Shown: positions 581 to 22,841 of the stretch, piece by piece
Layout of the letters: the number at the start of each line of letters is the position of its first letter
Numbering within the stretch: the stretch's first letter is position 1
Source: Desulfocapsa sp.
GTDB lineage: Bacteria > Desulfobacterota > Desulfobulbia > Desulfobulbales > Desulfocapsaceae
DNA: 39,917 bases
Assembly: GCA_013792135.1 (NCBI GenBank)
Contig: VMSP01000183.1
Span: 1-39,917 of the forward strand
Reading direction: 5' to 3'
Notes under the pieces: generated by a model
Databases searched by the model: none
Told to the model about the DNA's origin: nothing
What the model saw: the letters and a program-made list of their open reading frames with translations, nothing else
Position numbers and translations under genes: made by a program

Positions 581-2644
581 ATGAGCAAGAAGAGTTTATT
601 TCCCACCGGTGGATCCCTGCTGATCTACCCGCCTTTTGCCGATCCCACCTGGCCCTATGTGAGTCTGCCTACCCTTAAGGCATATCTGGGCAGGCGGGGA
701 ATCCTGGTGACAGTCAGGGATTTGAATGTTGAGGCTTTTTCGGTCCTGACGGCTAAATCCACCATTGACGAGTGGCAACAACAGTTGTCGGCGCGGTTTC
801 AGGCCTTGAATAGTCAGGACAGTTTGATTCTTTCCGAGCAGATGGAATATCGGCGAGTGGCAGAGGCCCTCCCTCTGTTTCAGGATTTTGCTGCGCTCAT
901 GACGGTGATGCGGGATGAGCGCAGCTTTTATGATCGGGCCGCTTATTCTGCGGGACGTGATGGTATTGAAGATATCTTTCGGATCATGGAGGCGGTTTAT
1001 TTCCCTTTTCGCTTCAACTGCAATCGGGCAGATCACCTGGTGTCGCCTTGGGATTTTAACCTTCTGGACTCCTATATCACTAATCGTATAAGTCCACTTG
1101 ATCGTTTTTATCGCAGTCAGTTGGCCGAACTTGAACCTCCTGGTTTTGTCGGGATCTCACTGACCTTTGTCTCCCAGATCCCCGAGACTTTTTATCTCTG
1201 CCGTCTGCTCAGGAAGGCCTTCCCAAACTGTTTTCTGATGCTGGGTGGGGCCTGTGCGGATCTGATGGTCCGTCATGGTAGCCCAGAGGTGGTGGAGCAG
1301 ATTTTAGGCTACGTGGATGCCATAGGCATGCAGGAAGGGGAGAAGACCCTGGAGCAGCTTCTGTCCTTACTTGCTGAGGGCCTTCCTGATCAGAGACAAC
1401 TGCTTACTATCCCGAATCTGATCACCCGTGATAAAATCAGCGGCATCATTCATCGGGGTGCCTCCTCCGTTTTGGATCTTGCAGAGAGCGCAGCGCCTGA
1501 TTATTCCGATCTCGACTTGAAACTGTACCTGGCGCCCTCGCCCATGCTTCTCTACAGTCCGACCAGGGGTTGCTACTGGAATAAATGCTCTTTCTGCGGT
1601 TATGGCTTTAATCAATCTGCAGCTCATGCCTACAGGGAGATTCCGGTGCAACAGGCAGTGGCCGATTTGCGGGCTCTGCAGGAGCGATTTGGGGTTGCCA
1701 ACTTTTACTTCTCCTGTGATGTCCTCTCTCCTGATTACGCTTTCCGTCTGGCCCAAGAGATCCTCGATAGTGGGCTTGAGATTTACTGGTCAACGGATCT
1801 GCGCATTGAGGCGGCCTATACCTCTGAGCGCTGCCGTCTGCTCTACCGGGCGGGACTGAGGGCTGTGGCCTTCGGGGTTGAGAGCTGTTCGCAGGCGGTC
1901 CTGCGCCTCATGCATAAAGGGATAACTCCTGAGCGTGTTAGGTCAGTCAATCGTAGTTTCCATCAGGCCGGAATTTCCACTGCCTGGATGACCTTCCTCG
2001 GTCATCCAGGCGAGGGATTCAAGGAGGCCAAGACGACGTTGGACTTGTTATCGGCAGAAAGAAAGGTCGTAGATCAGTTTATCGTCGGCACTTTCGGCCT
2101 GACTCCGGGCTCCAGGATTGCCTGCCAGCCGGAAGAATTTGGTATTGATTCCATCTACTTTACGGCAGGCGACGTGTTCAGGCTCTTCCCGCTTTATACT
2201 GTTCCCACTGCCGGGACAACTATCAATGATCGTCAATCTGCCCAACTGGACGCGCAGATTGACGATCTCTCCTCCCGCTATCAGCTTGATCATTACCCCT
2301 GGGCCGGGGCCATTTCCACCCATCATTCTTTTTTGTATCTGCTTCGCTATGGACAAAGGGTTTTTGCCAAGGCATGGCCTTTGCCTGCAAAAAGAAAAAT
2401 GAAGGCTGGGTCCGGAAAGAAGATTCGTTCCCGTTTCCCATTGACCGAGCTGCGTCGACGGGAAGAGCAGTTTATGGGCCAATATTTGGAAGAAGCCCTT
2501 CAACTTGACCAGGATGCAGGCCAGGGACGGTCCAGAGTTGCGGGCGCCAAGGACGGTACAGGAGTGACGACGGGCCTGACACCTCTCTGTTTTGATCATT
2601 TTCAGGAAGCACTGGCCCGAAAGTGTGGTGGAAACAAGAGGTGA
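581..2644 (+). CDS. B12-binding-type radical SAM protein
   Basis: A 687-residue protein. The ATG at 581 is preferred over one at 518 because AGGA lies just upstream and the extra 21 residues look unlike the family. The N-terminal half resembles a cobalamin-binding domain (LPTLKAYLGRRGI near the start; LGGACADLMV and IGMQEGEKTLEQLL further on). The radical SAM core follows, with RGCYWNKCSFCGYG carrying a C-x4-C-x2-C cluster motif at Cys331, Cys336 and Cys339. This spacing is common in B12-type radical SAM enzymes, against the classic C-x3-C-x2-C. Later motifs such as WSTDLRIE and FGVESCSQAVL fit the family. The substrate cannot be read from sequence, and the neighbours do not form a biosynthetic cluster. 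Residues about 645-664 are encoded by a copy of the intragenic repeat (2513-2569), which extends a basic C-terminal tail. Confidence 0.88.
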   Translation: MSKKSLFPTGGSLLIYPPFADPTWPYVSLPTLKAYLGRRGILVTVRDLNVEAFSVLTAKSTIDEWQQQLSARFQALNSQDSLILSEQMEYRRVAEALPLFQDFAALMTVMRDERSFYDRAAYSAGRDGIEDIFRIMEAVYFPFRFNCNRADHLVSPWDFNLLDSYITNRISPLDRFYRSQLAELEPPGFVGISLTFVSQIPETFYLCRLLRKAFPNCFLMLGGACADLMVRHGSPEVVEQILGYVDAIGMQEGEKTLEQLLSLLAEGLPDQRQLLTIPNLITRDKISGIIHRGASSVLDLAESAAPDYSDLDLKLYLAPSPMLLYSPTRGCYWNKCSFCGYGFNQSAAHAYREIPVQQAVADLRALQERFGVANFYFSCDVLSPDYAFRLAQEILDSGLEIYWSTDLRIEAAYTSERCRLLYRAGLRAVAFGVESCSQAVLRLMHKGITPERVRSVNRSFHQAGISTAWMTFLGHPGEGFKEAKTTLDLLSAERKVVDQFIVGTFGLTPGSRIACQPEEFGIDSIYFTAGDVFRLFPLYTVPTAGTTINDRQSAQLDAQIDDLSSRYQLDHYPWAGAISTHHSFLYLLRYGQRVFAKAWPLPAKRKMKAGSGKKIRSRFPLTELRRREEQFMGQYLEEALQLDQDAGQGRSRVAGAKDGTGVTTGLTPLCFDHFQEALARKCGGNKR
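2513..2569 (+). repeat. Intragenic repeat copy A (in radical SAM gene)
   Basis: This is the reference orientation of the repeat family: GATGCAGGCCAGGGACGG, then TCCAGAGTTGCGGGCGCC, then AAGGACGGTACAGGAGTGAC. It is read in frame as DAGQGRSRVAGAKDGTGV near the C-terminus of the host protein. By hand alignment without gaps it matches copy B at 45 of 57 positions and copy H at 42 of 57. Confidence 0.85.
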
Positions 2645-6137: not shown

Positions 6138-7547
6138 TCAGATAACAAACGACTGCAACGATTCAGGAATCACCACATTTTGCAGACCCAGCTGGGTTCG
6201 TAGATCATTGGCCAGAGTATGCGATGCCTCCTCTTCGCCGTGGACAATGAAGGTATGTTCAGGCTTTTTGTCCATAACCTGCACAAAATTCATAAGCCCG
6301 TCATGGTCGGCATGACCGCTGAAGCCCGTCTCTACTTCAACATGGGCCCTCATCTGATATTCATCCCCATAAATACGGACGATCTCCTCTTTTTCGACAA
6401 TCTTGCGGCCAAGGGTATTTGGGGCCTGCCAGCCGGCAATAAGAATCGTGTTGCGGGGATTCTCGATACGGCTGCACAGATGATGGAGGATGCGGCCGCC
6501 TTCCATCATTCCGCTGGCGCTGATAATGACCATCGGCCCTTTCATCTCGTTCAGTGCCTTGGATTGCTCAACAGACTGGGTATACTTAAGTCGGCCAAAA
6601 CCAAACGGATTGTTGTCGTCATCACTCAGGAGAAATTCTCGGATCTCAGCATCATAGACCTCTGGATGGAGACGGAAGATATCAGTGGTCCGAGTGGCCA
6701 GGGGGCTGTCGACAAAGATGGGCAGGTCAGGGATGGCCCCGCTGCTGTGCAATTTATGCAGGGCATAGACCAGTTGTTGAGTCCTGCCCACGGCAAAGGC
6801 TGGAATCAGCAGGGTACCGCCTCGCTGGGCGGTTTCGTTGACGATGCGCTCCAGTTCCTTTTCCGATTCAAAATAAGGAGGGTGAGTTCGGTTACCATAG
6901 GTACTCTCCATGATGAGGATGTCAGCGCCGGCGGTGAGAGGAACAGGGTCGCGGATGATGGGAATACCCGGCCTGCCGATGTCACCGCTGAAGACCAGAC
7001 GCCGGGATTTTCCGGTATCCTGATCTTCAATATCGAGGATGACATGGGCGGAACCCAGCATATGGCCGGCGTCCATCAGGGTCAGCTGCACCCCTGGAAA
7101 AAGCTGATGGCTCCGGTTATAGCTCAACCCCACGAATTGCTCCATGGACCTGGCCACATCTTCCTTGGTATAGAGCGGCTCAAAGGGGTTCTGCCTGTTC
7201 TTTCGGCGCCGTTTATTGACAAATTCGACATCCTTCTCCTGAATGAAGGCACTGTCCATGAGCATGATGGCGCATAGATCACGGGTGGCGGAGGTGCAGA
7301 TAATATCACCTCTGAAACCGTTTTTGACCAGACAGGGAATGCGGCCAGAGTGATCGATATGGGCATGGGAGAGGATGAGCACGTCCACCTCCTTGCCCCG
7401 GCAGAAATCGCTGCGGTTGCGCTCAAAGGCTTCTTTGCGCTTTCCCTGAAACAGGCCGCAATCGAGCATGATGGTTTTGCCGTTGACTTCAATAAGATGC
7501 AGGGAGCCGGTAACAGTCCCAGCTGCTCCATGGAAAGTGATTTTCAT
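6138..7547 (-). CDS. Beta-CASP metallo-beta-lactamase (RNA-processing type)
   Basis: A 469-residue protein with the full set of family motifs. The metal site SHAHIDHSG is near residue 60. GHMLGSAHVI, FSGDIGRPG and ESTYGNRTHP follow, then the beta-CASP part (IPAFAVGRTQQLVYAL, DSPLA, SASGMMEGGRILHHL) and a C-terminal RMMBL segment (GFSGHADHDGL, FIVHGEE). Members are related to CPSF73-like ribonucleases and act on RNA; the exact role of this bacterial branch is not known to me. The ATG at 7547 has AGAGGA at good spacing. It follows the histidine kinase gene by 20 bases on the same strand and may be read through from it. Confidence 0.92.
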   Translation of the reverse strand: MKITFHGAAGTVTGSLHLIEVNGKTIMLDCGLFQGKRKEAFERNRSDFCRGKEVDVLILSHAHIDHSGRIPCLVKNGFRGDIICTSATRDLCAIMLMDSAFIQEKDVEFVNKRRRKNRQNPFEPLYTKEDVARSMEQFVGLSYNRSHQLFPGVQLTLMDAGHMLGSAHVILDIEDQDTGKSRRLVFSGDIGRPGIPIIRDPVPLTAGADILIMESTYGNRTHPPYFESEKELERIVNETAQRGGTLLIPAFAVGRTQQLVYALHKLHSSGAIPDLPIFVDSPLATRTTDIFRLHPEVYDAEIREFLLSDDDNNPFGFGRLKYTQSVEQSKALNEMKGPMVIISASGMMEGGRILHHLCSRIENPRNTILIAGWQAPNTLGRKIVEKEEIVRIYGDEYQMRAHVEVETGFSGHADHDGLMNFVQVMDKKPEHTFIVHGEEEASHTLANDLRTQLGLQNVVIPESLQSFVI

Positions 7548-7567: not shown

Positions 7568-10500
7568 TTATTTGCTTACAGAATGTAAGGTCTTGAGTGC
7601 CGCTTCAAAATTGAATGCCTCAATTTGTTGCGATAATTCGTTAAAGTGTGCCCCCATGGCGGGACGTAATAACGGGGCTGCATCCCTTATCAGCAGGCTG
7701 GCTCGGCCGTTGTTTTCTGTCAGCAGCTCTTCCAGCTCGGTGAATATCTGTTGCAACCGGACCGGATCTGCTTGGGCGATTTCTGCGGAGTCTGTTTTTG
7801 TTGCTCCTGCACCGTCCTTGGTACCCGCGACACTGGGTCGTTCCTGACCTGCATCTTCAGGCAAGGCAAGAATTGCCGTATTTAACAGCGTTTGCTCACG
7901 GGCAAGGGCTTGGAGTAAGGGATCAGTTACGCTGGCTGGCTGTTCCTCTCTGCAGGCTGTTTCCAGTTGGGTCGCAAAATCTCGTACAAGGTTTGCCCCC
8001 AGGGTAGCGGCAACCCCTTTCAAGCCATGGGCGATATCCCGGCTTTTTGAAAAATTACCGGTGTTCAGCAGTTCAGTAATCCGTGCTGCATCATTGGTAT
8101 GAGACAGGGCAAACTGGCGTAATATTTTGACATAGATAGCTAAGTTGCCATGTAAATTTGACAGGCAGAGCGTTGGGTCAAGGTTAGGAATATGCCCTAA
8201 CAGTTCATGCAAGCTACTCTCTTTCGGAATCATGGCTTTGTCAGCATAATGGGCAGGGAGCGGGCATGTCTGTCCCGGGAGCCATTTTGACAGGGAGGCA
8301 AACAATATCTTGGGCTCCACCGGTTTAGGAATGAAGTCATTCATCCCCGCCGCCAGACAGGCATGACGGTCTTTATCGCAGGTGTTAGCGGTCATGGCCA
8401 GGATAGGCAGCTTCATACAGTTCGGCAGCAGGCGAATTTCCTGCGTGGCCTCCAGGCCATTCATCTCCGGCATTTGTATATCCATCAGGATCAGGTCGTA
8501 AGTGGTGCTGCTGGTTTTCTCCAAGGCTTCACGTCCGTTTTCCGCGGTATCTACTTCAAACCCGGCCCCGTGCAGCATTTCCAGTATCACTTCCTGATTG
8601 ATGGCATTATCTTCGACCAGCAACAGATGGGCACCACCATGGCGTTGCCGTATTGTAGCCTCGGTATGCATCTCGGTTACAGCTACGGTTGAATGCATGA
8701 TCTCTTGGCCTCGTTCTAGTCTGGCGGTGAACCAGAAGGTACTGCCGTGGCCCGGTTCACTGTCAACACCTGCCTCGCCACCCATCATATGCGCCAGCCG
8801 GGAGGTGATGGCCAATCCAAGGCCGGTGCCGCCGTGCTGGCGGGTGGTTGAGACATCCGCCTGTTCAAAGGCGTGAAACAGGCGGGGCAACTGCTCGGCA
8901 GCGATGCCGGTTCCGCTATCCTCTACCTCAAAACGCACCAGCACTTCATTATTACTTTCTTCCACCAGCCGGGCACGCAGGGTGATGACACCGTGTTCGG
9001 TGAACTTGATGGCATTTGTGGCGTAGTTGAGTAAGGCCTGATTGAGCCTGGTTGCGTCACCTCGCAGCTGGGGGGGAACATTGGTTGTGTCCACTTCAAT
9101 GCTGAGTCCTTTGCTCCTGGCCTGTTCCGCGATCAGGGAGCGGACATGCTTTACTACAGTATCCAGGGAGAAGTCTGTTGATCTCAGCGGCAGCCGACCG
9201 GCCTCAATCTTGGAGAGGTCGAGGATGTCATTGATGATGGTTAGCAATTGGTGGGTGGCAGCGGTGATCTTGGCCAATTTATTCTGTTGTTCTGAGTCAT
9301 GGCTGTCGCGTTGCAGCAGATGGGTCAGTCCGACAATGGCGTTCATGGGAGTCCGGATCTCATGGCTCATATTGGCCAGAAAAGTACTCTTGGCCAGATT
9401 GGCGGCCTCAGCGCGTTCACGTGCATCTGCCAGTTCTGTTGTTCGCCTCTCTACCAGCTCTTCCAGATGATGACGGTGGCGGTCCAGTTCCTCACCCATC
9501 AGTTTTCTCTCGGTGATATCCTCTTTTATTGCCATGTAATGGGTGATACGCCCATCTGTCTGCCGGATGGGCGTGATAGTGGCAAACTCGATGTATTCGC
9601 TGCCATCTTTACGTTTGTTGTAGAACTCGCCTTTCCATGTCTGGCCTTGGTTCAGAGTATCCCACATAGCCTTATACGTTGCAGGTGAAGTCTTCCCGGA
9701 ATGGAGAATACGTGGGTTCCTGCCGATCACCTCTTCGGAGGTGTAACCGGTGTTGTGGATGAAGGTCTCGTTCACGTATTCGATGTTGGCAGCGAGATTG
9801 GTGATAACGATGCTTTCCGGGCTCTGTTCCACCGCCAGAGAAAGTTTGTTGATTCTCTCTTGTTCAATTTTGCGTTCGGTGATGTCTTCACCTGAACTGA
9901 GGGTGCCAACAATCCTGCCCGTATTGTTCTTGTAATAAGTATGGTGCCAAGTAATTAACCGCTGACTGCCGTCCCGGCATAATACCGGGTTCTCAAAATA
10001 TTCGGCGGTTGGTAAGTTGCCATTCATGATCTGTTGGAAGAGAGGAAAAACCGTCTCCAGTCCTTCAGGCTGCGGCAGGCATGTTGTAAACCAATGGCGG
10101 CCCAGGAGGTCGTTTTCTTTGTAGCCCAGCAGTTCACACCCTTTGTGGTTAATCATGGTGATCTGACCCTGATCATCCAGCTCAACCATCAAGGTCTGCA
10201 CCGTATCAAGATATCGCTGGTTGCGCTTACACTCCTGTTGCAGTGCCGCCTCAGCCTTCCGTCTCTCGGTGTCATCGCGGAATGCCAAGACTGCACCTAA
10301 TAATATACCATTGGTCTTTCTGATTGGTGTGATGTTGTTGTGGATCGGAATCTCTCGGTCATCACGTGCCAGCAGGAGAGCTTGAATGGTAAGACTTGCT
10401 AGTTTATCGGAGGCCAGGATTTTTTTTACCGGATTATCGATGGGTTCACGAGTCTGTTCATCGATAATTTTGAAGACCGTCATTAGCGGTTGACCAACTG

Positions 10501-11257
10501 CTTGCTGACATGTCCAGCTGGTCAGATATTCTGCTTGCGGGTTAAGAAAGGAGATGTGACCACGGCTGTCCGTGCTGATGACCGCGTCCCCTATACTGGC
10601 CAGGATTACGGCCTGGTATTGCCGACTCGCTTCCGCCTGCTCTCGCGTTTTGAGCAGTACTTCACTCAGGACACTGATGAGAACGCCATTGATAATAAGA
10701 AGGGCCAACTGGAAAAGACCCTGTTGATGGGCGATCCAGAATGTATGAGACGGCGGAACAAAATATGCGGTGCTGGCGGTAGCGATTCCAGTTGCGGTCA
10801 GACCGGGACCAAGACCTCCTAATATTGCACTCAGGATGATGGGGAACATAAAAATGAGGAGTAGTGGCCGTTCGTCAGATGGAAAAACGATGCCCATGCG
10901 TATCAGGAGTACGGCCCAGGTCACTGTCACGGCAAATACATAGAACTGCCAGCGTGGCCAGGAGACCAAAGCTGCAGATCCTCCAAGATCTTCAATGTTC
11001 ACATTGGATGACCCGGGCAAACGCTGTAATAATTTATAGAGCAGCAGCGTGGTAACGGCCACAAATAACCATCCCTTAAGGGTACTGGCCAGAATGATCT
11101 GGGCAGGATCGGTGAACAACCAGGCCATGATCTTGTCGGAGAGCAGTATCCACAGGGAGGAAAAGACCGCATAGATCAAGACAATACGGTAGATGTCGAG
11201 GGTCATGTTTTGTCCCGACGGGAGGGAATGTGCAGGAGATTCTGGATCTTGCATCAT
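7568..11257 (-). CDS. Hybrid sensor histidine kinase with PAS, REC and Hpt domains
   Basis: A 1229-residue protein. Residues 1 to about 215 hold several transmembrane helices. Three PAS modules follow to about 590 (each ending with ITERK or DTERRK). HisKA has the phospho-acceptor His632 in NMSHEIRTP. The ATPase domain has GTGIA and GGTGLGLAI. A receiver domain has Asp926 in LMDIQMPEMNG. A C-terminal Hpt domain has His1077 in IAHGLKG. All sites needed for an internal His-Asp-His relay are present. Residues 1135-1153, in the linker after the Hpt helices, are encoded by intragenic repeat copy B. The gene follows the HD-GYP regulator by 91 bases, and that regulator is the likely final phosphate acceptor. 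The start is uncertain; another ATG lies 17 codons downstream. Confidence 0.92.
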   Translation of the reverse strand: MMQDPESPAHSLPSGQNMTLDIYRIVLIYAVFSSLWILLSDKIMAWLFTDPAQIILASTLKGWLFVAVTTLLLYKLLQRLPGSSNVNIEDLGGSAALVSWPRWQFYVFAVTVTWAVLLIRMGIVFPSDERPLLLIFMFPIILSAILGGLGPGLTATGIATASTAYFVPPSHTFWIAHQQGLFQLALLIINGVLISVLSEVLLKTREQAEASRQYQAVILASIGDAVISTDSRGHISFLNPQAEYLTSWTCQQAVGQPLMTVFKIIDEQTREPIDNPVKKILASDKLASLTIQALLLARDDREIPIHNNITPIRKTNGILLGAVLAFRDDTERRKAEAALQQECKRNQRYLDTVQTLMVELDDQGQITMINHKGCELLGYKENDLLGRHWFTTCLPQPEGLETVFPLFQQIMNGNLPTAEYFENPVLCRDGSQRLITWHHTYYKNNTGRIVGTLSSGEDITERKIEQERINKLSLAVEQSPESIVITNLAANIEYVNETFIHNTGYTSEEVIGRNPRILHSGKTSPATYKAMWDTLNQGQTWKGEFYNKRKDGSEYIEFATITPIRQTDGRITHYMAIKEDITERKLMGEELDRHRHHLEELVERRTTELADARERAEAANLAKSTFLANMSHEIRTPMNAIVGLTHLLQRDSHDSEQQNKLAKITAATHQLLTIINDILDLSKIEAGRLPLRSTDFSLDTVVKHVRSLIAEQARSKGLSIEVDTTNVPPQLRGDATRLNQALLNYATNAIKFTEHGVITLRARLVEESNNEVLVRFEVEDSGTGIAAEQLPRLFHAFEQADVSTTRQHGGTGLGLAITSRLAHMMGGEAGVDSEPGHGSTFWFTARLERGQEIMHSTVAVTEMHTEATIRQRHGGAHLLLVEDNAINQEVILEMLHGAGFEVDTAENGREALEKTSSTTYDLILMDIQMPEMNGLEATQEIRLLPNCMKLPILAMTANTCDKDRHACLAAGMNDFIPKPVEPKILFASLSKWLPGQTCPLPAHYADKAMIPKESSLHELLGHIPNLDPTLCLSNLHGNLAIYVKILRQFALSHTNDAARITELLNTGNFSKSRDIAHGLKGVAATLGANLVRDFATQLETACREEQPASVTDPLLQALAREQTLLNTAILALPEDAGQERPSVAGTKDGAGATKTDSAEIAQADPVRLQQIFTELEELLTENNGRASLLIRDAAPLLRPAMGAHFNELSQQIEAFNFEAALKTLHSVSK
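7799..7855 (-). repeat. Intragenic repeat copy B (in histidine kinase)
   Basis: Read on the minus strand this copy begins GATGCAGGTCAGGAACGA and ends GGACGGTGCAGGAGCAAC. It is in the same orientation and frame, relative to its gene, as copy A. It encodes DAGQERPSVAGTKDGAGAT. It sits where related kinases have a short Pro/Ala linker after the Hpt domain. Confidence 0.85.
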
Positions 11258-13991: not shown

Positions 13992-15827
13992 TTATCCAGA
14001 AGATGTCAGCATTGCATGCAGGCCGCTGGAACGACTGATGGTGCGATTGAGCGCAGCATGAAAAATGGTCTGGTCACTGGCAATCAGCACCCTCTTTTGG
14101 GCGCGGGTGACGGCGGTATAAATCAACTCCCGGGTCAGGAGGGGGGTGTCGGTGCCGGGCAGGACCACCAGGATCTCGGCAAACTCGGAACCCTGACTTT
14201 TGTGAATAGTCATGGCAAAGACTGTTTCACACGCCGGCAGTCGATAGGGCTGGTATCCCTTGACGCTGCCATCTTCACGCTCAAACCAGACTTTGAACGT
14301 GTCGGGATTATTGTCGTTGGAGAGGGCGGTCCGTTCCGGCAGGCAGATCCCGATATCCCCATTGAACAGGTTCAGATTATAATCATTATTCAGGATTATT
14401 ACCGGTCGTCCTGGATACCAGTCGCCGACCAGGGACGGTCCAGTGTCGCGGCGGCCAGGGATGGCAGAGGAGCGACCGCCTGGCTGACATGGAGATCCGC
14501 TAGCTGCGAGACCCTGTTCCATCTGTCGGTTGATGGTCTCAACGCCGCCGGTCCCGCGTCTGGTGGCGCAGAGAATCCGAAACCGCTTGAAGCAATGAAA
14601 AAGCTCCCGGATTTCGTCTTCCTTTCTGTCATCATCATGCACGGCCAGGGCCTGCTGCAGGTAGCAAGAATATCGGGTGGCAATAAAGTCCGCCATTGGC
14701 TCATGGAGTAAGCTCACCGCCGTCGTTTCATGATCATCACGATTGAGCATGGCCCAGGCGGCACCGCTGTCGTTTTCGTTCACGGCGCGGGCAAAGGCGC
14801 TGATCTCCTGGTTGAAACGGTAGCTTTTCCGTAGCGTTACCGTATTCTCGGGCAGGGATTGGATACAATCTGCCAGTACCGCTCCGGATTCAACTGAGGC
14901 GAGTTGATCCTTGTCTCCCAGCAGGATCAGTCTGGCGCCTGCTTTCAAGGCATCCACCAGTTTACTCATCATGGCCAAATCCACCATGGATGCCTCATCT
15001 ACCACCACTACATCCCAAGGCAGGGGATTGGTATGATTGTGGCGAAAATGGGGGGAATTGTGGCGTACTCCCAGCAGGCGGTGCAGGGTGGAGGCCGTGG
15101 TGGGAATCTTCTCCTTGATGTCTTCTGAGAAGGGCAGACCGGCAAGGCTTGCCGCTATGGATTCTTTGAGCCGCATGGCTGCCTTGCCCGTCGGGGCTGC
15201 CAAGGCGATTTGTAAGTCAGGCCCCAGCATCAGGAAGAGCAGACCAAGAATTCGTACGACGGTGCTGGTCTTGCCGGTACCCGGGCCGCCGGAAATAAGG
15301 GCCAGGTGTCGTGTCAGCGCCATTTCCGCTGCCCGGCGCTGCCAGTCTATCTCCTGCTCCTTGCCAAAACAGGTATCAAGCTCAGCTTTACACTGCGGGA
15401 CTACGCATTGTTCCCGTGCCAGTCTCTTGAGCTGCCCGGCCAGTCGTAATTCATAGCGAAAGTAGCGCTGAAGATAGAGCCTGCTCTGCCAGAGGACCAG
15501 CGGGGTGGTGATGTCTGCGGAGATAAGGACGCTCACACCATTCTTGGATCCCGCTGCATTAGGACATCCCTGTCCGTCAGTGTCGCCGGTTGTACTCAAA
15601 AACTGTTCTTCTGCACTAGTCAGCGGCAGGCAACTATGCCCATCGGTGAGGGAGGCTGAAAGTCGTTTGATCAGCAGTTCAAATCTGTCAGCCGCTGTTC
15701 CCGACAGGCCGGAGCGTCTGGTCATGAACCGGGCGAACTGAGTGTCGAGGGGAGAAAAAATTTGCGACGGGTTGGGATGGCCCAGTGTTGGAGGTGCCAT
15801 GGACGACATTGGAGTGAACTCATCCAT
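13992..15827 (-). CDS. recD: Exodeoxyribonuclease V alpha subunit RecD
   Basis: About 611 residues. The start is the ATG at 15827, eight bases after a strong GGAGG, and it overlaps the recB stop codon as ATGGATGA. The 5'-3' helicase motifs are present: Walker A GGPGTGKTST with Lys186, Walker B VVVDEASMVD, and the C-terminal MTIHKSQGSEF and YTAVTRA. RecD forms the RecBCD complex that unwinds and degrades broken DNA ends and loads RecA after Chi. The gene carries three copies of the intragenic repeat: at about residues 4-21, 84-99 and 451-467. The third separates EQGLAASG from WYPGRPVIILNNDY, which in other RecD proteins are close together. Confidence 0.95.
   Translation of the reverse strand: MDEFTPMSSMAPPTLGHPNPSQIFSPLDTQFARFMTRRSGLSGTAADRFELLIKRLSASLTDGHSCLPLTSAEEQFLSTTGDTDGQGCPNAAGSKNGVSVLISADITTPLVLWQSRLYLQRYFRYELRLAGQLKRLAREQCVVPQCKAELDTCFGKEQEIDWQRRAAEMALTRHLALISGGPGTGKTSTVVRILGLLFLMLGPDLQIALAAPTGKAAMRLKESIAASLAGLPFSEDIKEKIPTTASTLHRLLGVRHNSPHFRHNHTNPLPWDVVVVDEASMVDLAMMSKLVDALKAGARLILLGDKDQLASVESGAVLADCIQSLPENTVTLRKSYRFNQEISAFARAVNENDSGAAWAMLNRDDHETTAVSLLHEPMADFIATRYSCYLQQALAVHDDDRKEDEIRELFHCFKRFRILCATRRGTGGVETINRQMEQGLAASGSPCQPGGRSSAIPGRRDTGPSLVGDWYPGRPVIILNNDYNLNLFNGDIGICLPERTALSNDNNPDTFKVWFEREDGSVKGYQPYRLPACETVFAMTIHKSQGSEFAEILVVLPGTDTPLLTRELIYTAVTRAQKRVLIASDQTIFHAALNRTISRSSGLHAMLTSSG
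14427..14477 (+). repeat. Intragenic repeat copy C (in recD)
   Basis: The plus strand reads GACCAGGGACGGTCCAGTG, then TCGCGGCGGCCAGGGATGG, then CAGAGGAGCGACC. It is antisense to recD and is translated as GRSSAIPGRRDTGPSLVGD. This frame differs by one from that used by the other antisense copies. Confidence 0.85.
15531..15578 (-). repeat. Intragenic repeat copy D (in recD)
   Basis: A more diverged copy in the sense of recD: GACGGACAGGGATGTCC, then TAATGCAGCGGGATCC, then AAGAATGGTGTGAGC. It is read as DGQGCPNAAGSKNGVS, the same frame as copies A and B. The TAATGCAGC middle is shared with copy F, so D and F form a subfamily. Confidence 0.75.
15766..15817 (+). repeat. Intragenic repeat copy E (at recD start)
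   Basis: The plus strand reads GACGGGTTGGGATGGCCC, then AGTGTTGGAGGTGCCATG, then GACGACATTGGAGTGA. It begins only about eight bases after the recD start codon and is antisense to the gene. It encodes TPMSSMAPPTLGHPNPS, aligned with the peptide of copy H (APAPSLAPTTLDHPWSA). Confidence 0.75.
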
Positions 15828-18800
15828 TTTCTGATCCTCCACAGTGCTGATTGCCGGAGTGACCGCCGGAGCGAGCAAGGCAGCGGTCGAGCTGTTCCAG
15901 GGTTGTAAGATCGGGCAGATCAAAATAGACCCCGCTTCCGGCCATGCCGGGTTCCATGCCCCGGACAAACAGGTACATTATGCCGCCAAAATGAGTTGCA
16001 TATGTATAGTCGGTTAAGGTGGTCTGCAGATAGCGGTGGAGTATCAGGGTATACAGCCAGTATTGCAGGCCGTAGTTGTGGTCGTGCATGGCATGTTCCA
16101 GGGCTTTCCGGCCGTAATCCGACAGGCGGTTACCCAGCCAGTTGCTCTTATAGTCCATGATGTAGAATTTACCCTGATAGCGGCAGACAAGATCAATAAA
16201 ACCGGTGAGGTAACCATTTATGGTCTTCGGTGTGACCGGGCTTACCGTAGGTGATCCGACCAGGATACTATTGATCTGATCGGTGGAGCCGGATTGAAGC
16301 CGAAAATAAAAGGGCATCTCCCTGATGGTCTCGGCTTGTTCAAGATCGGCCAGAGAGAATGAGGCGGCTGTGCTTGCAGATAAGGGTGTCCTGACCACTT
16401 TTTGGAGCAGGGCAGCCATCTTGGTGGGACTCACCTCAACACCGAACCATGTGCACTGCTGTTTGATGGTCTCTTCAAAGCCATTGCCCACCGCCAGAGT
16501 GGCAAAAGAAATGTTTTCCAGCAGACCATGCACCACATTGCCCATCGGTGCTCCTTTCGGGAGATCTGGAAGGATGGGCTCGCTGCTTGCCTGGGGCAGG
16601 TCAACGCTGTCAAACTTCTCTGACCAAGGGGTTTGGTTGTCGGATTGATGGGACAGGGATGAATAACTGTGCAGCAGCCAGTCGGTGTGCAGATGACGAC
16701 CGGTGAATGACAGGGGCATGAGCTCATCCGCTCTTGCCTGCAGATTGCTTATCATTGTCAATTCATCATGATCGGCGGCAAGAAGTTCATAGGCCACAGA
16801 GTTGTCTGCAGCTTGTGTTTGCAGGGTTTTTATCTGGGATGCAAATTCCTTTTTCTGTTCCAGGGATAAGAGCCAAGCCAGGGCCGAATCCCGGGAATCA
16901 GTGATAAACCTGTTACCCTTCACCTCGGCCCAGAGGGCGTAACAGCGGCAGCGGGCCCGGGTCAGGGCCACATAGGCCAGTCGTAGCTCTTCCGCCAGTT
17001 CTTCCTGCAGTGCCTGTACTTTACGTTTTTCAAAAAGGGGGGAACCCAGATCCATGATCAGGTCTCTACCGGTTCCTTCGGCACTGTCATGACATGTTAT
17101 GCAATCCTTTGCCGTTTTGATGTAATTGCCGCGATGCCAGAGAAAAGGGCAGAAGACCACAGGATACTCCATCCCCTTGGCACTGTGCATGGTGACAATC
17201 TGGACTGCTTCTTCGTCGCTTTCCAGTCGCAGTTCGGTATTCTCCATCCCATGTTTTTCTTCTTTCATGGCCTGCAGCCACTGCAGGGTTTTGGTCGGCC
17301 CCATGCTCTCGTCCGTTTCTGCTGTTTGAATCAACTCAAGGAGGTGGTGGATATTGGAGATCTTACGCTCGGCCAGAGGTTGCCGTGTCAGATTGATCAA
17401 GATTTTTTCCATTTCAAGGAGACGGGTCATCATCGCCAGAAAGCCGCGTTCCTGCCAGAGCAGATGGTAGTCATGGAAACGGGTCAACCAGTGATCCACC
17501 TGCTCCGGGTCCTGCCAGGAGGCATACAATTCCATTCCATTCATACCAAACCAGGAACTGGTGAGTGCGGTCTTCAGGAGCATGAGGTCTCCAGGGGAGC
17601 AGAGGGCCTGCATGAGCAGAAAGAGATCATGGCATTCATTGGTGGTGAATACCGATTGCTGACTGGCTATGACCGCAGGAATTCCGGCAAGGGCCATGGC
17701 GGTCTGAAATTGTTCCGCCTGCTTATGACTCCTGACCAGAATGGCAATGTCTCTGGGTACCAGCGCTTGCTGCTGCAAGAGATTCTCTTTTGTGGCAGTC
17801 AGCATGATGGGATGCTCAGATCGCAGCAGACGCACGATCTCTGTGACCACATAAGAGACAATCTGCTTTGTTGCTTTGCCGGAACTCCATCTGCCGTCTT
17901 TGGCATCTGAGGCAGCCAGTTCGCAATAGACCATGACGGCCATAGTCTTTTGATCATCCAGCAGTTGGCCATCTTCCACGTGTTTAGCTGGAAGGACAGG
18001 GTGATAGGATAGCTCTTTGGAGGCGAAGGCATCTTCCCGTAACAGGAACAGCTGGTTGACGGCCTCAACCAGAGCTGGATGGGAGCGGTAGTTTTTTGCC
18101 AGGTTCAGGTGGATATCCGCCTGCTCACTGGCCTTGAAATAGGAGTAGATGTCCGCCCCCCGGAAGGTGTAGATGGCCTGTTTGGGGTCGCCGATGAGGT
18201 ACAGATAATGGGAAGAATCGGTAAAAAGGGCGGAAAAGATGGAGTACTGCGCATTATCCGTATCCTGAAACTCATCAATCAGGGCAGCCTGATAGCGGTC
18301 GCTGATGATCTGCTGCAGTTCCGGCCCTTGATTGCTCTGCAGAGAGTGCTCCAGTTGGGAGATTAGATCATCAAAGGAGAGCAGGTTTTGACGGCGCAGG
18401 ACATGGGTCAGTCCGGTTGCAAGTTCATGGACAAGGCCCATGCGGAAGGCCAGGGTCACATCCTGCCAGGCTTGGCAAAAGTCGGCAAGCTCCTGTTCCG
18501 GCAGGGGCAGGGTGGCGATAAAGGCCTCTTTTTTTTCTTCGCTTCCCTGTCCGACCCCGGCCCTGAACTTGTGGCCATTGAGCGCCTGCAGTATCCAGGC
18601 TGTGCTGAGAAACTCCATGTTGTCGGGTAGATGCAGGCTGTTGTGGCAGAGAAAGTCATCCATCTGCTGCCACCAGCCGGAAAAATTGTTCTGCAGCTCT
18701 GTCTTGAATTTTCCCTCGCTCAGGGCCTGTTCCAGAGTAAGGCGCAGAATATCCGCTCTGGTCTGCCACCAGTTGGAGAGGCGGTGTAGCTGCTCATCAA

Positions 18801-19470
18801 AACAATCCAGGGCATCATTTACTGTTTTTGCCTGTGGTTCAATCCGGGCGACCTGTTTTTCCGTGCCCCTGACACTCTGGTATAGATCATCAGGGGTCTT
18901 GTATATCCCGGTGATCAGGGCGCAGTGAAGGGGAGAAAGGGGATAGGCCATGCGTCGCCAGTAATCTTGGATGACTTGATTGCGCTGGTTGCTGAGATCG
19001 GTAGTCAGGGTAAAGTCAAAGAGTTGTCCGCTCTCCAGTGCCTGTTCCTGGAGCATACGCTGACAGAAACCGTGGATGGTGAAGACGGCGGCAAGGTCCA
19101 TATCGAGCAGGGCCATCTCCAGCCGCTCCCGGGCAAGGTGTTCGCTAATCCCATGCTCGGCGAGTCCGGCGTGCCAGGACGTAAGTGCGGGATCACTCTG
19201 GTTGCAGATATCGGGCCTGTGGATGTGGTCAAGGAGTTCCCGGGCCGATGCCAGCCGCGCGCGGATCCGTTCTTTAAGTTCTTCGGTGGCCGCCTTGGTA
19301 AAGGTCACCACCAGGATCTTCTGCAGGGGGAAACCAAATTCAGTGACAAAGCGCAGGACCAGCATGGCGATGGCAAAGGTCTTGCCTGTTCCGGCGCTGG
19401 CCTCAACCAGATTGACCCCTTGGTGCAGACGGTCGGTGGCGGCGTCAAATGTTTCTTGAGGAATATTCAT
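15820..19470 (-). CDS. recB: Exodeoxyribonuclease V beta subunit RecB
   Basis: About 1216 residues from the ATG at 19470, which has AGGAG eight bases upstream and overlaps the recC stop as ATGA. UvrD-type helicase motifs are clear: VEASAGTGKTFAIAM with Lys30, LIDEFQDTDNAQYSIF, GDPKQAIYTFRGAD, VTMHSAKGMEYPVVF and LRLAYVALTRARCR. The C-terminal nuclease domain is present (GYLTGFIDLV and YIMDYKSNWLG, with the catalytic Asp and DYK motif). RecB supplies the 3'-5' helicase and the only nuclease of RecBCD. Unlike recC and recD it contains no copy of the intragenic repeat that I could find. Confidence 0.96.
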   Translation of the reverse strand: MNIPQETFDAATDRLHQGVNLVEASAGTGKTFAIAMLVLRFVTEFGFPLQKILVVTFTKAATEELKERIRARLASARELLDHIHRPDICNQSDPALTSWHAGLAEHGISEHLARERLEMALLDMDLAAVFTIHGFCQRMLQEQALESGQLFDFTLTTDLSNQRNQVIQDYWRRMAYPLSPLHCALITGIYKTPDDLYQSVRGTEKQVARIEPQAKTVNDALDCFDEQLHRLSNWWQTRADILRLTLEQALSEGKFKTELQNNFSGWWQQMDDFLCHNSLHLPDNMEFLSTAWILQALNGHKFRAGVGQGSEEKKEAFIATLPLPEQELADFCQAWQDVTLAFRMGLVHELATGLTHVLRRQNLLSFDDLISQLEHSLQSNQGPELQQIISDRYQAALIDEFQDTDNAQYSIFSALFTDSSHYLYLIGDPKQAIYTFRGADIYSYFKASEQADIHLNLAKNYRSHPALVEAVNQLFLLREDAFASKELSYHPVLPAKHVEDGQLLDDQKTMAVMVYCELAASDAKDGRWSSGKATKQIVSYVVTEIVRLLRSEHPIMLTATKENLLQQQALVPRDIAILVRSHKQAEQFQTAMALAGIPAVIASQQSVFTTNECHDLFLLMQALCSPGDLMLLKTALTSSWFGMNGMELYASWQDPEQVDHWLTRFHDYHLLWQERGFLAMMTRLLEMEKILINLTRQPLAERKISNIHHLLELIQTAETDESMGPTKTLQWLQAMKEEKHGMENTELRLESDEEAVQIVTMHSAKGMEYPVVFCPFLWHRGNYIKTAKDCITCHDSAEGTGRDLIMDLGSPLFEKRKVQALQEELAEELRLAYVALTRARCRCYALWAEVKGNRFITDSRDSALAWLLSLEQKKEFASQIKTLQTQAADNSVAYELLAADHDELTMISNLQARADELMPLSFTGRHLHTDWLLHSYSSLSHQSDNQTPWSEKFDSVDLPQASSEPILPDLPKGAPMGNVVHGLLENISFATLAVGNGFEETIKQQCTWFGVEVSPTKMAALLQKVVRTPLSASTAASFSLADLEQAETIREMPFYFRLQSGSTDQINSILVGSPTVSPVTPKTINGYLTGFIDLVCRYQGKFYIMDYKSNWLGNRLSDYGRKALEHAMHDHNYGLQYWLYTLILHRYLQTTLTDYTYATHFGGIMYLFVRGMEPGMAGSGVYFDLPDLTTLEQLDRCLARSGGHSGNQHCGGSENG

Positions 19471-22400
19471 GGATTTTTCTCTCCTGCTGCCCAGATGGGG
19501 CCAAGGAAATCCTGACACAGCCGCTGGAATTCCGGGCCAAGCAAGGTGTCCGGATCACAATCACCATAGAGCAGGGCCAGCTCGGGTTCATAGCCCTGTT
19601 CCAGGCTGTTGGCAAGAGCTGTTATTGCCGCTTGCAGTGGCGGTGTTCTGGCCCGGAGCTTGTCCTGCTGCTGGATAAAGGTCCAGGCTGGTTCCACCAG
19701 CAGGTGGCTGGGAGAAAAAGAGCCTTGCCTGTAAATTGCCATCAGCTCACCAAGGTGGAAAAATGGGTCAGCGCAGGGCGGAAAGCAGAGATCCAGGTCT
19801 TTGGTCAGCAGATGGGTGGAGGTGGACGTTGCGGCAGCGGCGACGGCCAGGGATGGCCTAATGCAGCGCGAACCATGGATGGCAGTAGCGGCGACAAGCA
19901 GATGATGAATCCAGGCCTTGAGCAGATCTTTGCCCTTGCACTCTGTATAGCGGGCCAGCAGGATGCCGTTTTCATGGAGATCTGCAAGTTGGCCTACAAG
20001 GCGATATTCACCGATCTGCAGATCAATGAATAGATCCGGTAGCTGCTTGCCCATATTTTTGGCCTGGATCTGTACGGCAAAGGCTGACAGTTCCGGCAGC
20101 ATCCGGTCAAAGGCAAGCTGGCCGGGAGCACCCAGCATCCAGCGGCCCTGGGTTTTCAGTCTGGTGAGAACAGTTGCTTCCGCGTCAGCATCTGTCGCTA
20201 TCTCACCATCCAGGCATCTCTGGACCAGCTCTTGATTGATCAGATAGCGGTCAAGGCCGGACACGCTAAAGAGTTCACTGTTTACGGGTAGTTCGCTTTT
20301 GGTATCGAGCCGGATATTCAGCCTGTTGCGCACGAACCATTTTTGCGGATGGGCAAAGAAGCGGAATAGATCAACAAGGTTTACAGTAAAAGTGCCATCG
20401 TCGGGCAGCGATCCTGACCACCATGGCTCGGGGTTCTGTGTCTGTGGCGGGTGGAGCAGGGCCCTGGCCACTTCGCAATTATGCTCATTATAGCTGAACA
20501 GGCAGGACGCAGGCCAAGGATGGCTCAGTGTCGCGCGCTCCATGGATGGATGAAGCGGGACCTGGAAATAACGGGGGGAAAATGGTTGCAGGGGATGGGT
20601 CTGCATTGGATCTTCAATCCCGTAAGAGAGCCTGAGGGTCTCGATCAGTTCGGTGATCAGCACCGAGGGCGGGATACCATTTCCCGAGCGGTTCGACTGG
20701 CCTACATGGCTGAGATAGAGATACTTTCTGGCCGAGAGCAGGGCCTCAAGGAATTGGTAACGGTCATCGCCTCGTTTGGAGCGGTCTCCGGGGATGAATT
20801 TCTCACCCAGCAGATCAAAGGGCGGATGGCGGTCGGTTTTGGGAAAGACTCCATCGTTCAGCCCCAGCAGACAGACCGCTTGAAAGGGGATGGAGCGCAT
20901 GGGCAGCATGGAGCAGAAGGTGAGCTGGCCGCGCAGAAATCCGGCGCTGCTCTTGCTCTCCGAGGCCGTGGTCTCCAGCCAGGCCCGTATCACCTCAAGG
21001 GGGACATCGTGGTGGTGAAAGGCGCCAAAGCGACTGTCAAGAGTGGTCAGGATCTCCCGTAACTGGGCAAGATCCTCCATGTCCTGGCCAAACAAGGCAT
21101 CAACATAGGAGAGCAGAAGTGTTGACCAGGCAGAAAGCGGACGGGGCCGGGCAAGGACTTCTGCCGCCTGGGCCAGCAGTTCGATGAACTGGCACAAGCC
21201 GCCCAGAGGCCGGGCCTGACTTCCTTCGATATCGGGATAAGGCAGAATTCTGTCCACCGGCATATCCCAATCCATGGCATATCCCATGAGCAGCCGATCA
21301 AGTCCGGCCTGCCAGGTGACCTCTGCCTGTACGGGCGCAGACCAGGGATGGTCTAGTGTCGTGGGTGCCAGGGATGGCGCAGGAGCGACCAGGTCCAGGC
21401 TCTGCAGCTGTTTGCTTGAGAGCCCCCAGCGGATACCGGAGCTTGTGATCCAGTGCTGAATCAATTCGCAGTCGGACTCAGTAAGAGAAAAGGCAGGCAT
21501 AAGCTCCGGCCTTGCCAGCAGATCAATGACCTCAGACCAGGAGCAGCGGCTGACGGCCAGATCAAGAAATTGGAGAAACACTGCCAGGCTGGAGTTGTGG
21601 TGGCGCAGGCTGCGGTCGGCAATGGAGTGCTGAATATCATGAAAGATGGCCGGGATAATAGCGGCATATTCCTGGATGTCAGGGGCCATGACCACAATAT
21701 CCCGCAATTCCATCTCCGGGTTGGACTGGAGCCAGCGCAGGATCTGATCCTTGAGAACCATCACCTCTCGGACTGCAGAGTGGCAGGAGACGATGGTCAG
21801 GGAGGAATCAAGACATATCTTTTCATTGTCCTCCCTCTCTTTCCATCCGCCATCAAGCAGGTCTGATTGCAGGCGGTGGAGCAGGCAGGGTGTTTTCGTC
21901 TGCACCGGATCTTCGTAGCTGTCCGAGTCTATCAGGTTGTCAATACGATCAAGGAGCATGGCCTGAAAGTCCTGGCCCTGTTTTCCAAGGGAGTTCAACA
22001 GGGGGTGAATCTCAGGAATAAAAGGAATGGGTTCGAGATTTTCACCCAGTCGGCAAAGATTTTCCCGTATCAACTGCCGCTTGCCGGGAATGTCAAGCCA
22101 GTAGTTTTGACAGGGGGTGAGGAGATAGAGGTGGACCTCGCAATGGCAGGAGACGGCGTGCAGACAATCCAGCAGCAGGGGCGGCATACTGTGCAGACCA
22201 AAGACCGAGAGACGAGCGGGCAGGATGGCGGCAACGTCTTCAGGTCCCTGCAGCCGTTGGAGAAACCGGCGCAGCATCTCGCCCCGGTGCGGGGTGTTGT
22301 CAAGGGATTTGCGTAGTTGAGCCCAGAGGGCCATCTGCCATTCTTCCGCCGGATTGCTGCTGCTCAGCCTCTGCTGCTGCCAGCCATCGAGCATCTCCGT

Positions 22401-22841
22401 CCGCATAATCTGATACTGATCAAAGATATTGGCCAGTTGCTGGGAAAGTTGATAGCGTTTCAAGCCGCTCTGCTCCCCGCTCATATAGCGGAGAAGCGGC
22501 GCAAAGAGAGGGCTTGGCTTTTCCTGCCCCTGTTGCGTTATCTGCTGCAACAGGGCATCAATACGCCAGGAAAGCGCATCTCGGGCAAAGGCATCCGGAT
22601 TGATGACCATGTTCATCCGGTTGGCCATGAGATCGAAAAACCGGGTGGGCAAGAGATACTCAAAATTGCACCAGACCGTAAAGGCATCCGCCAGCCGCTG
22701 GGAGAGCATCCGCTCCATCCCCTGACTCTGGATGAGAAAATACTCCTTGGCAAACAGGTTGCGACGAGGCTCGTTGCGCAGGATCTCAACCAGCTGAGCG
22801 AGGAGATTTTCAGTCCTGTTGGAGAGATGGAGATAGAACAT
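19467..22841 (-). CDS. recC: Exodeoxyribonuclease V gamma subunit RecC
   Basis: A 1124-residue protein with family signatures: MFYLHLSNRTENLL at the start, AKEYFLIQSQGMERML, SVFGLHSMPPLLLDCL, LGLNDGVFPKTDRHPPFDLL and RSKRGDDRYQFLEALLSAR. RecC scans for Chi and scaffolds the complex. It is the first gene of recC-recB-recD. No clear ribosome binding site precedes the ATG at 22841. Three copies of the intragenic repeat encode about residues 484-503, 761-779 and 982-1000. The second separates HPLQPFSPRYF from LFSYNEHNCEVARAL, and the third splits KDLLKAWIHHLLVA from the following segment; both pairs are normally only a few residues apart in RecC. Confidence 0.95.
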   Translation of the reverse strand: MFYLHLSNRTENLLAQLVEILRNEPRRNLFAKEYFLIQSQGMERMLSQRLADAFTVWCNFEYLLPTRFFDLMANRMNMVINPDAFARDALSWRIDALLQQITQQGQEKPSPLFAPLLRYMSGEQSGLKRYQLSQQLANIFDQYQIMRTEMLDGWQQQRLSSSNPAEEWQMALWAQLRKSLDNTPHRGEMLRRFLQRLQGPEDVAAILPARLSVFGLHSMPPLLLDCLHAVSCHCEVHLYLLTPCQNYWLDIPGKRQLIRENLCRLGENLEPIPFIPEIHPLLNSLGKQGQDFQAMLLDRIDNLIDSDSYEDPVQTKTPCLLHRLQSDLLDGGWKEREDNEKICLDSSLTIVSCHSAVREVMVLKDQILRWLQSNPEMELRDIVVMAPDIQEYAAIIPAIFHDIQHSIADRSLRHHNSSLAVFLQFLDLAVSRCSWSEVIDLLARPELMPAFSLTESDCELIQHWITSSGIRWGLSSKQLQSLDLVAPAPSLAPTTLDHPWSAPVQAEVTWQAGLDRLLMGYAMDWDMPVDRILPYPDIEGSQARPLGGLCQFIELLAQAAEVLARPRPLSAWSTLLLSYVDALFGQDMEDLAQLREILTTLDSRFGAFHHHDVPLEVIRAWLETTASESKSSAGFLRGQLTFCSMLPMRSIPFQAVCLLGLNDGVFPKTDRHPPFDLLGEKFIPGDRSKRGDDRYQFLEALLSARKYLYLSHVGQSNRSGNGIPPSVLITELIETLRLSYGIEDPMQTHPLQPFSPRYFQVPLHPSMERATLSHPWPASCLFSYNEHNCEVARALLHPPQTQNPEPWWSGSLPDDGTFTVNLVDLFRFFAHPQKWFVRNRLNIRLDTKSELPVNSELFSVSGLDRYLINQELVQRCLDGEIATDADAEATVLTRLKTQGRWMLGAPGQLAFDRMLPELSAFAVQIQAKNMGKQLPDLFIDLQIGEYRLVGQLADLHENGILLARYTECKGKDLLKAWIHHLLVAATAIHGSRCIRPSLAVAAAATSTSTHLLTKDLDLCFPPCADPFFHLGELMAIYRQGSFSPSHLLVEPAWTFIQQQDKLRARTPPLQAAITALANSLEQGYEPELALLYGDCDPDTLLGPEFQRLCQDFLGPIWAAGEKNP
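19842..19895 (+). repeat. Intragenic repeat copy F (in recC)
   Basis: The plus strand reads GACGGCCAGGGATGGCC, then TAATGCAGCGCGAACC, then ATGGATGGCAGTAGCGGCGA. It is antisense to recC and encodes part of AIHGSRCIRPSLAVAAAA. The TAATGCAGC middle links it to copy D. Confidence 0.8.
20506..20560 (+). repeat. Intragenic repeat copy G (in recC)
   Basis: The plus strand reads GACGCAGGCCAAGGATGG, then CTCAGTGTCGCGCGCTCC, then ATGGATGGATGAAGCGGGA. It is antisense to recC and encodes LHPSMERATLSHPWPAS, between two RecC segments that are normally adjacent. Confidence 0.85.
21334..21390 (+). repeat. Intragenic repeat copy H (in recC)
   Basis: The plus strand reads GGCGCAGACCAGGGATGG, then TCTAGTGTCGTGGGTGCC, then AGGGATGGCGCAGGAGCGAC. 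It is antisense to recC and encodes VAPAPSLAPTTLDHPWSA. The internal direct repeat CCAGGGATGG is perfect in this copy. Confidence 0.85.

Follow-up and report, generated by a model that had tools for sequence, protein, structure and literature searches.

Small dispersed repeats of cyanobacteria are very small mobile units. Rickettsia palindromic elements (RPEs), with equivalents in Wolbachia, are described as small hairpin repeats that lie in-frame in conserved protein genes as well as between genes (PMC2229807). GTAG- and CGTC-tagged repetitive extragenic palindromic (REP) sequences (Di Nocera et al. 2013) are short hairpins as well, some of them intragenic, and are reported repeatedly from recBCD, uvr and other repair genes (PMC3733652). 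A further counterpart is an RNA, TwoAYGGAY (Rfam RF01731), which has two hairpins with, going by its name, AYGGAY loops, is given with two matches to a CsrA-site model (PMC4333381) and is listed for human gut, gamma-Proteobacteria and Clostridiales (PMC2864571). Here we describe a 54-bp repeat found in eight full copies (A–H) in recD, recC and other genes of a 39,917-nt contig of Desulfocapsa sp. (VMSP01000183.1; hereafter the window, meaning the whole stretch analysed).

The 54-nt unit is dispersed, forms tandem arrays, has covarying stems, and occurs in both orientations and in four reading frames of conserved genes. We think it probable that it is a non-autonomous, dispersed mobile element of twin hairpins, REP- and RPE-like but of a new family, whose insertions into genes are filtered by host selection.

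Distribution of the repeat

Genomes were searched with a sequence-only profile built from 14 copies, with 150 candidates scored per genome. In the window's own 4.2-Mb genome, 63 matches were obtained at E ≤ 0.01, including the 14 building copies; the window copies, all eight of which belong to the building set, scored between E 7e-18 and 4e-11. The repeat is far beyond chance. Within the genus, 15 of 17 genomes (own included) carry 13 to 131 copies each, and the two without copies are 55% and 63% complete. The profile found the element in none of eight genomes from other genera of the same family; other families of the order, with 13 genomes searched, gave three copies in one genome and a weak match in another. 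With stricter filters, 14 of 395 genomes sampled across the phylum Desulfobacterota matched at E ≤ 1e-5, of which 12 are not members of the genus.

Matches were also found on mobile replicons. A Lonsdalea populi plasmid, the single plasmid record returned by one query (the other query returned none), has one copy antisense in a gene for DNA primase, and five viral contigs match degenerate patterns; annotated phages gave no match with two queries. On the Lonsdalea plasmid a symR match below threshold (L226 4640-4712, minus strand; 53.6 bits, cut-off 61) stands beside a SymE-type toxin gene.

For closer analysis, stretches around copies were taken from three genomes of the genus: 39 from G000, covering all copies at E ≤ 0.01, and 47 from G014 and 13 from G008, covering only the best-listed copies. 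A profile search of these stretches and the window gave 64, 68 and 40 matches, respectively.

Covarying twin hairpins

The element consists of two head-to-tail hairpins, GNNC-ANGGAY-GNNC followed by GCC-ANGGAY-GGC, the second enclosed in an outer stem (for example GTCGC/GCGAC or GCCGC/GCGGC). RNAalifold returned the two hairpins and the outer stem from 14 copies. On alignments made without structure, 91.7% (G000), 97.7% (G014) and 98.0% (G008) of the cells in these stems were paired, and cells changed on both sides numbered 46, 17 and 4, compared with means of 17.0, 3.1 and 0.5 in shuffles that do not keep the relatedness of copies. A set of 24 sequences was 97.7% paired; apart from one window copy, its 23 other members came from the plasmid, viral contigs and other families. 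It had 30 compensatory cells versus 6.4 in shuffles, and partners slid out of register paired in at most 49%. In alignment A8, L228 and L234 were dropped (the anchor failed) and L224, L240, L243, L244 and L248 were not entered. Across the 24 sequences one hairpin 1 pair takes the forms G-C, A-U, C-G and U-A, and the GGA of loop 1 is invariant. At columns 31 and 44, an outermost pair of hairpin 2 was not formed in 6 of 14 copies, and the later structure omits it.

The loops are alike in the sense, antisense and intergenic copies of G014 and G008; in G000 they are somewhat looser, most so between genes. Because the covarying fold is kept on either gene strand, a single mRNA orientation does not maintain it.

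Filled and empty sites

The recB, recC and recD genes of up to eight genomes showed both filled and empty sites, and the length differences that were read ranged from 42 to 162 nt and were all multiples of 3, as reading frames require; empty sites in relatives were seen for recBCD only. Among the relatives, identified by recC, a Desulforhopalus isolate (39% identity) stands beside metagenome assemblies carrying the labels Desulfobulbaceae, Desulfocapsaceae, Desulfoarculaceae or Proteobacteria, which leads us to place the genus in or near Desulfocapsaceae (NCBI phylum Thermodesulfobacteriota, here Desulfobacterota). The recB orthologues of L057 and L059 do carry copies, and shorter remnants occupy the site of copy H in L055 and L060. 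Window coordinates and the relatives lacking each copy are given in Table 1, where the names of recB, recC and recD pass NCBIfam equivalog cut-offs and the start of recD was placed by hand at 15830, so that copy E counts as inside the gene.

Table 1 Repeat copies, hairpins of copy H and recBCD genes in the window
Feature	Positions	Strand	Context
Copy A	2515..2569	+	Sense, near C-terminus of radical SAM gene (open reading frame 518-2644 +); frame a (AGQGRSRVAGAKDGTGVT)
Copy B	7799..7853	-	Sense, near C-terminus of hybrid histidine kinase gene (7568-11257 -); frame a
Copy C	14423..14477	+	Antisense in recD; frame b' (RSSAIPGRRDTGPSLVG); site 54 nt shorter in L055, L056, L058
Copy D	15525..15579	-	Sense in recD; frame a
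Copy E	15765..15819	+	Antisense, N-terminus of recD; frame a'
Copy F	19841..19895	+	Antisense in recC; frame b' (AATAIHGSRCIRPSLAV, the frame of copy C); absent from L056-L059, L061
Copy G	20508..20562	+	Antisense in recC; frame a'; absent from L058-L061
Copy H	21336..21390	+	Antisense in recC; frame a'; absent from L056 (54 nt shorter), L057, L058, L061
Hairpin 1 of copy H	21340..21353	+	Stem GACC/GGTC, hexaloop AGGGAT; element positions 5-18
Hairpin 2 of copy H	21367..21378	+	Stem GCC/GGC, hexaloop AGGGAT; outer stem, element positions 23-27 with 50-54
recD, exodeoxyribonuclease V alpha	13992..15830	-	TIGR01447 510.7 bits, cut-off 310.15; host of C, D, E
recB, exodeoxyribonuclease V beta	15820..19518	-	TIGR00609 851.8 bits, cut-off 696.05; copy-free here
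recC, exodeoxyribonuclease V gamma	19467..22841	-	TIGR01450 724.1 bits, cut-off 582.9; host of F, G, H

The initial annotation had drawn the copies from 14427-21390; D to H do lie there, C starts just before it, and A and B lie outside. Its orientations relative to the genes hold for all eight copies, and three frames are indeed used in the window, although copy F had been misplaced: the sets are A, B and D (AGQG- or DGQG-type peptides), E, G and H (the VAPAPSLAP frame), and C and F (the RSSAIPG frame). An AlphaFold model of RecD, built on 6 alignment rows, reached a mean predicted local distance difference test score (pLDDT) of 42 and was not used for placing the inserts in loops.

Two other features of the window were recorded. 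A lone hairpin of like kind (GGTC-AGGGAT-GGCC, plus strand, at 6728), with no second hairpin listed, lies antisense in a gene whose MBL/beta-CASP matches fall below cut-off. Three direct repeats, at 273-nt spacing and 76-80% identity, occupy 38452-39297 in a gene near the window end.

Unit length and copy ends

Insertion was also visible inside a second, larger intergenic repeat, here called X, which has inverted repeats, measures about 100 bp (TTAGGAGCCGTTACGAAATAAC...ATTTCGTTACGGCTCCTTATGCCG...CAGCGGCTTA) and was recorded at L172-L201 (30 loci; for example L175 around 1430-1610). An intact X core was present in all 17 genomes of the genus, and a reversed control gave no match. The 54-mer is nested in some X copies, at two points. 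At the first point the insert measures 54 nt in 42 of 44 copies (37 of these 42 in G014), 55 nt in one and 162 nt, or three units, in another; at the second it measures 54 nt at three copies in G000, and rows L084 and L143 did not fit cleanly. Insertion in X follows TTA.

Tandem steps of 54 nt were counted 13 times in genes and three times between genes; other steps in genes were 51 (five), 66 (three), 39 (two) and 38 nt (one). Since the unit is 54 nt even between genes, the frame is preserved. A 51-nt subfamily with the outer stem CCGC/GCGG stands in tandem in a TamB gene (L102 2907-3056) and in another gene (L169 3734-3989). Copies mostly start with CGCAGG, CGACGG, CGCCGG or TGACGG and end with GCGAC or close to it.

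Orientation and reading frame in genes

Genes were called by a hexamer model, and copies shorter than 41 nt (10, 3 and 7 in G000, G014 and G008) were excluded from frame counts. Called genes held 89 copies of at least 41 nt at 65 loci, with 45 copies sense and 44 antisense (33 and 32 loci). Loci per frame were 19 in a and 14 in b among sense frames, 10 in a' (one with an indel) and 22 in b' among antisense frames, and none in c or c'. Two copies (L160 4196 and L165 2566) were reassigned to the frame that their peptide shows, and the indel copy (L110 2468), which would be c' by position alone, was counted under a'. Two copies between abutting gene calls look, on reading, like gene junctions.

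The element had been proposed to enter genes with little regard to direction, through at least three stop-free frames. As far as direction goes this is what we see, and use of a single frame genome-wide is contradicted by the four frames in use; it does not extend to frame, as two are without a clear case. Under equal chance and independence, none in c and c' would have a probability of (2/3)^65, about 4e-12, or about 3e-6 for the 31 G000 loci alone, although some of the 65 loci depend on one another, orthologous insertions (for example MmeI in L073 and L139) having been counted once per genome. A bias in the phase of target-like hexamers was considered as the cause and does not explain it: with background hexamers as a proxy for the target, 76 of 428 phases in genes fall in c and 193 of 531 in c', which gives probabilities of about 0.002 (sense) and 5e-7 (antisense). 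The gene caller may miss odd frames, a caveat on this absence, and for seven copies beyond the called genes (one each in L117, L113, L125 and L091, three in L130) the longest stop-to-stop open reading frame of at least 150 aa runs in c or c'.

The peptides in the four frames in use are mostly rich in Gly, Ala, Pro, Ser and Thr, in line with the initial annotation. Frame c reads RRPGMAQCRGRHGWRRSD-like and c' SLLRHPWRPRHWAIPGL-like peptides, rich in Arg, Cys, His and Trp; although roughly two in three full gene copies have them open, these two frames gave no clear host case.

Host genes number 53 outside the window and 57 with it. Pfam domains were present in all 29 host proteins scanned (22 from G000, 7 from G014), which by short names assigned from domains include MurG-, FtsQ-, MutL-, Mfd-, MutM-, RNase II-, LspA-, TamB- and IlvD-type proteins, MmeI and HsdM. 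Genes of restriction or DNA methylase type recur as hosts (L073, L139, L110, L050, L222 and L224), MmeI and HsdM being recognised by Pfam and three in G026 by eye. Together with the plasmid and viral-contig copies, such hosts may act as carriers of the element between lineages.

A putative enzyme acting in trans

For a mobile unit filtered by its hosts, we propose that the single-strand fold, as single-stranded DNA or RNA, would be recognised by an enzyme supplied in trans that copies or moves the element, and that gene insertions would persist where the unit, 54 nt or 18 codons long, leaves the frame intact and encodes a peptide of the Gly/Ala/Pro/Ser type. A role of the fold in spread, through such an enzyme, seems most likely to us.

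Several results weigh against this proposal. By a weaker measure of covariation, pairs with any double change numbered 6, 3, 2 and 5 (G000, G014, G008 and the 24-sequence set), and 61, 20, 32 and 40 of 500 shuffles were as high. Some recBCD sites look inherited or decayed, and the copies within X in G014 were probably carried along by it and hence are not independent jumps. No regular target duplication was found: over 60 arrays in genes, tandem remnants included, the start of the element and its 3' flank share 3.07 of 6 letters compared with 2.89 when permuted, a weak signal reached in 72 of 2000 permutations, and site a of recB is a single case that looks like a 7-bp target repeat. The mobilising enzyme was not found near copies, 19 of 20 stretches around Y1 transposase genes, which cover part of the Y1 genes of the genus, being copy-free; the twentieth, picked for a copy listed on its contig, has that copy 2.2 kb from the gene. 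A shortage of stops in frame b', given below with its numbers, belongs here as well.

One alternative is that of a REP-type element moved by a REP-associated tyrosine transposase (RAYT) or another Y1 (HUH) transposase acting on hairpins of single-stranded DNA, which we hold to be possible, though unlikely. The small hairpins, the lack of a regular target duplication and the insertion after TTA in X would suit such an enzyme; Y1 genes occur in 36 of 38 genomes searched, and REPs inside recBCD and uvr genes have been published (PMC3733652). The same genes are, however, present in 19 of 21 non-genus relatives, nearly all of them element-free, and the 19 Y1 stretches taken without regard to a nearby copy all lack it. 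The repeat also has no GTAG tag, and its head-to-tail order is given as absent or under-represented among GTAG dimers (PMC3733652). Y1 transposases are candidates by kind, none of them tied to the element.

CsrA and the GGA loops

An alternative of a different kind is that the repeat is a CsrA/RsmA-binding RNA module, in which two ANGGAY hairpins 26 nt apart would take up one CsrA dimer and regulate host transcripts or serve as a decoy, its dispersal spreading CsrA sites. By sequence, the element would qualify as a CsrA pair: ANGGA stands in a hexaloop with a C-G closing pair, and the two putative sites fall within 10-63 nt of each other. CsrA ligands obtained by systematic evolution of ligands by exponential enrichment (SELEX) are described as having mostly six-base loops on short stems, and CsrA as bridging sites 10-63 nt apart; the loop with its closing pair, C-ARGGAY-G, fits the SELEX consensus RUACARGGAUGU (PMC7652899). 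CsrA binding is predicted for TwoAYGGAY, whose layout is the same (PMC4333381), and the GGA loops of the repeat are strongly kept.

Orientation and gene content speak against it. The mRNA lacks the GGA loop at the 44 of 89 gene copies that are antisense, and between co-directional genes 17 copies are sense and 26 antisense. csrA was not found in the element-bearing genomes G005, G007, G014, G015, G163 and G214, drafts in which a short gene can be missed; among these G014, with 131 copies, keeps its loops. Overall, 21 of 27 element-bearing genomes yielded csrA, versus 12 of 19 non-genus relatives without the element (G037, with one weak match, excluded). CsrA as the agent that keeps the loops was therefore set aside, as orientation and the csrA-less genomes argue against it. 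A CsrA role, attractive on motif, is weak on orientation and gene content, and we judge the module reading distinctly unlikely.

A broader scenario joins the two ideas. In it a selfish 54-bp element would spread a CsrA-type hairpin pair, in-frame and in both directions, via Desulfobacterota core genes, phages and restriction genes, and the fold, read by an enzyme or RNA-binding protein, would serve mobility, protein tolerance and possibly CsrA titration. We offer it as speculation that is unlikely to be correct.

Stop codons in host and non-host frames

The initial annotation had suggested that the element itself is stop-free in several frames, a state that selection could have produced so that genes can be entered whichever way it points. 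Taken over all full copies, the consensus is indeed open in six frames, of which four are in use. All six frames are, however, also open in 43% of dinucleotide shuffles of the consensus, and single copies do not bear out a stop-free design in general: at least one frame is interrupted by a stop in 49 of 76 full-length gene copies and in 56 of 61 intergenic copies (44 in frame b, mostly one TAG common to G014 copies). In the non-host frames of full-length gene copies, where stop depletion had been suggested as a check, stops occur in 84 of 380 (22%), compared with 199 of 822 (24%) in all frames of shuffled copies. Over all 137 full copies, stops in 156 of 822 frames contrast with 199 (s.d. 9) in shuffles, a deficit that includes host frames, which are stop-free by construction. 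The absence of host-frame stops (0 of 76) is likewise an outcome of how genes are called and is no test of pseudogene copies.

Two frames did prove stop-poor off-host relative to uniform mutation of the consensus: a' with 6 of 127 (17% expected) and b' with 2 of 111 (10%). The others gave 30 of 137 in c (22% expected), 29 of 115 in a (24%), 54 of 119 in b (36%) and 35 of 137 in c' (35%). Each of a' and b' has just two sites at which a single change makes a stop. For a' both lie in the stem of hairpin 1, and stops are scarce because these sites are conserved there: independent sites predict 7.3 stops against 6 seen. For b' independent sites predict 13.1 against 2, and a candidate stop-making G-to-T change is common, occurring in 13 copies. 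This deficit, which goes beyond host selection and site mutability, could reflect linked subfamily changes or real avoidance. Of the initial suggestion on stop-free frames, this shortage is what survives. Copies share descent, so that none of these stop counts are independent.

The data overall do not bear out a general depletion of stops in the element; host selection, composition and stem conservation explain most open frames, and selection of the element for open frames appears very doubtful to us. Local expansion of a protein linker repeat by slippage would account for tandem arrays with 54- or 51-nt steps in genes and for targets that in some cases resemble the element's start, and is almost certainly wrong, being refuted as sole cause by a sequence that recurs across unrelated genes and in intergenic stretches, takes both orientations and four frames, and has a covarying structure.

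Comparison with known elements

The repeat inserts in-frame in conserved protein genes as RPEs do. RPEs are, however, described as 105-146 bp long with terminal inverted repeats, whereas the present element has 54 bp and two direct hairpins with ANGGAY loops in place of terminal inverted repeats in one long stem-loop. REPs, as characterised in PMC3733652, have stems of 5-13 or 8-9 bp, a GTAG or CGTC tag and mainly head-to-head (HH) dimers. The element has stems of 4 bp, and of 3 bp plus 5 bp, with six-base GGA loops in head-to-tail order. It lacks a terminal GTAG or CGTC; GACG, the complement of CGTC, precedes hairpin 1 in some copies, and GCAG or CGCC in others. The repeat-flanked RAYT or Y1 transposase known for GTAG REPs was not seen in the 20 Y1 stretches. 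Unlike TwoAYGGAY, the element is dispersed inside genes on either strand; Rfam gave no family match in the window at gathering thresholds and no RF01731 at E ≤ 5 in 18 element loci. No description of this 54-nt family was found in open-licence papers.

The strictly kept ANGGAY loops and covarying stems, which recur in other families, on a plasmid and in viral contigs, point to a putative factor that reads the fold, and the set of inserts makes measurable which inserted peptides a protein tolerates. We rate REPs inside genes, including recBCD and repair genes, and Rickettsia RPEs as already known and the 54-nt family as new. By contrast with those, dozens of copies occur here in many genomes of one genus, with empty recBCD sites, in both orientations and in four frames of core-type genes.

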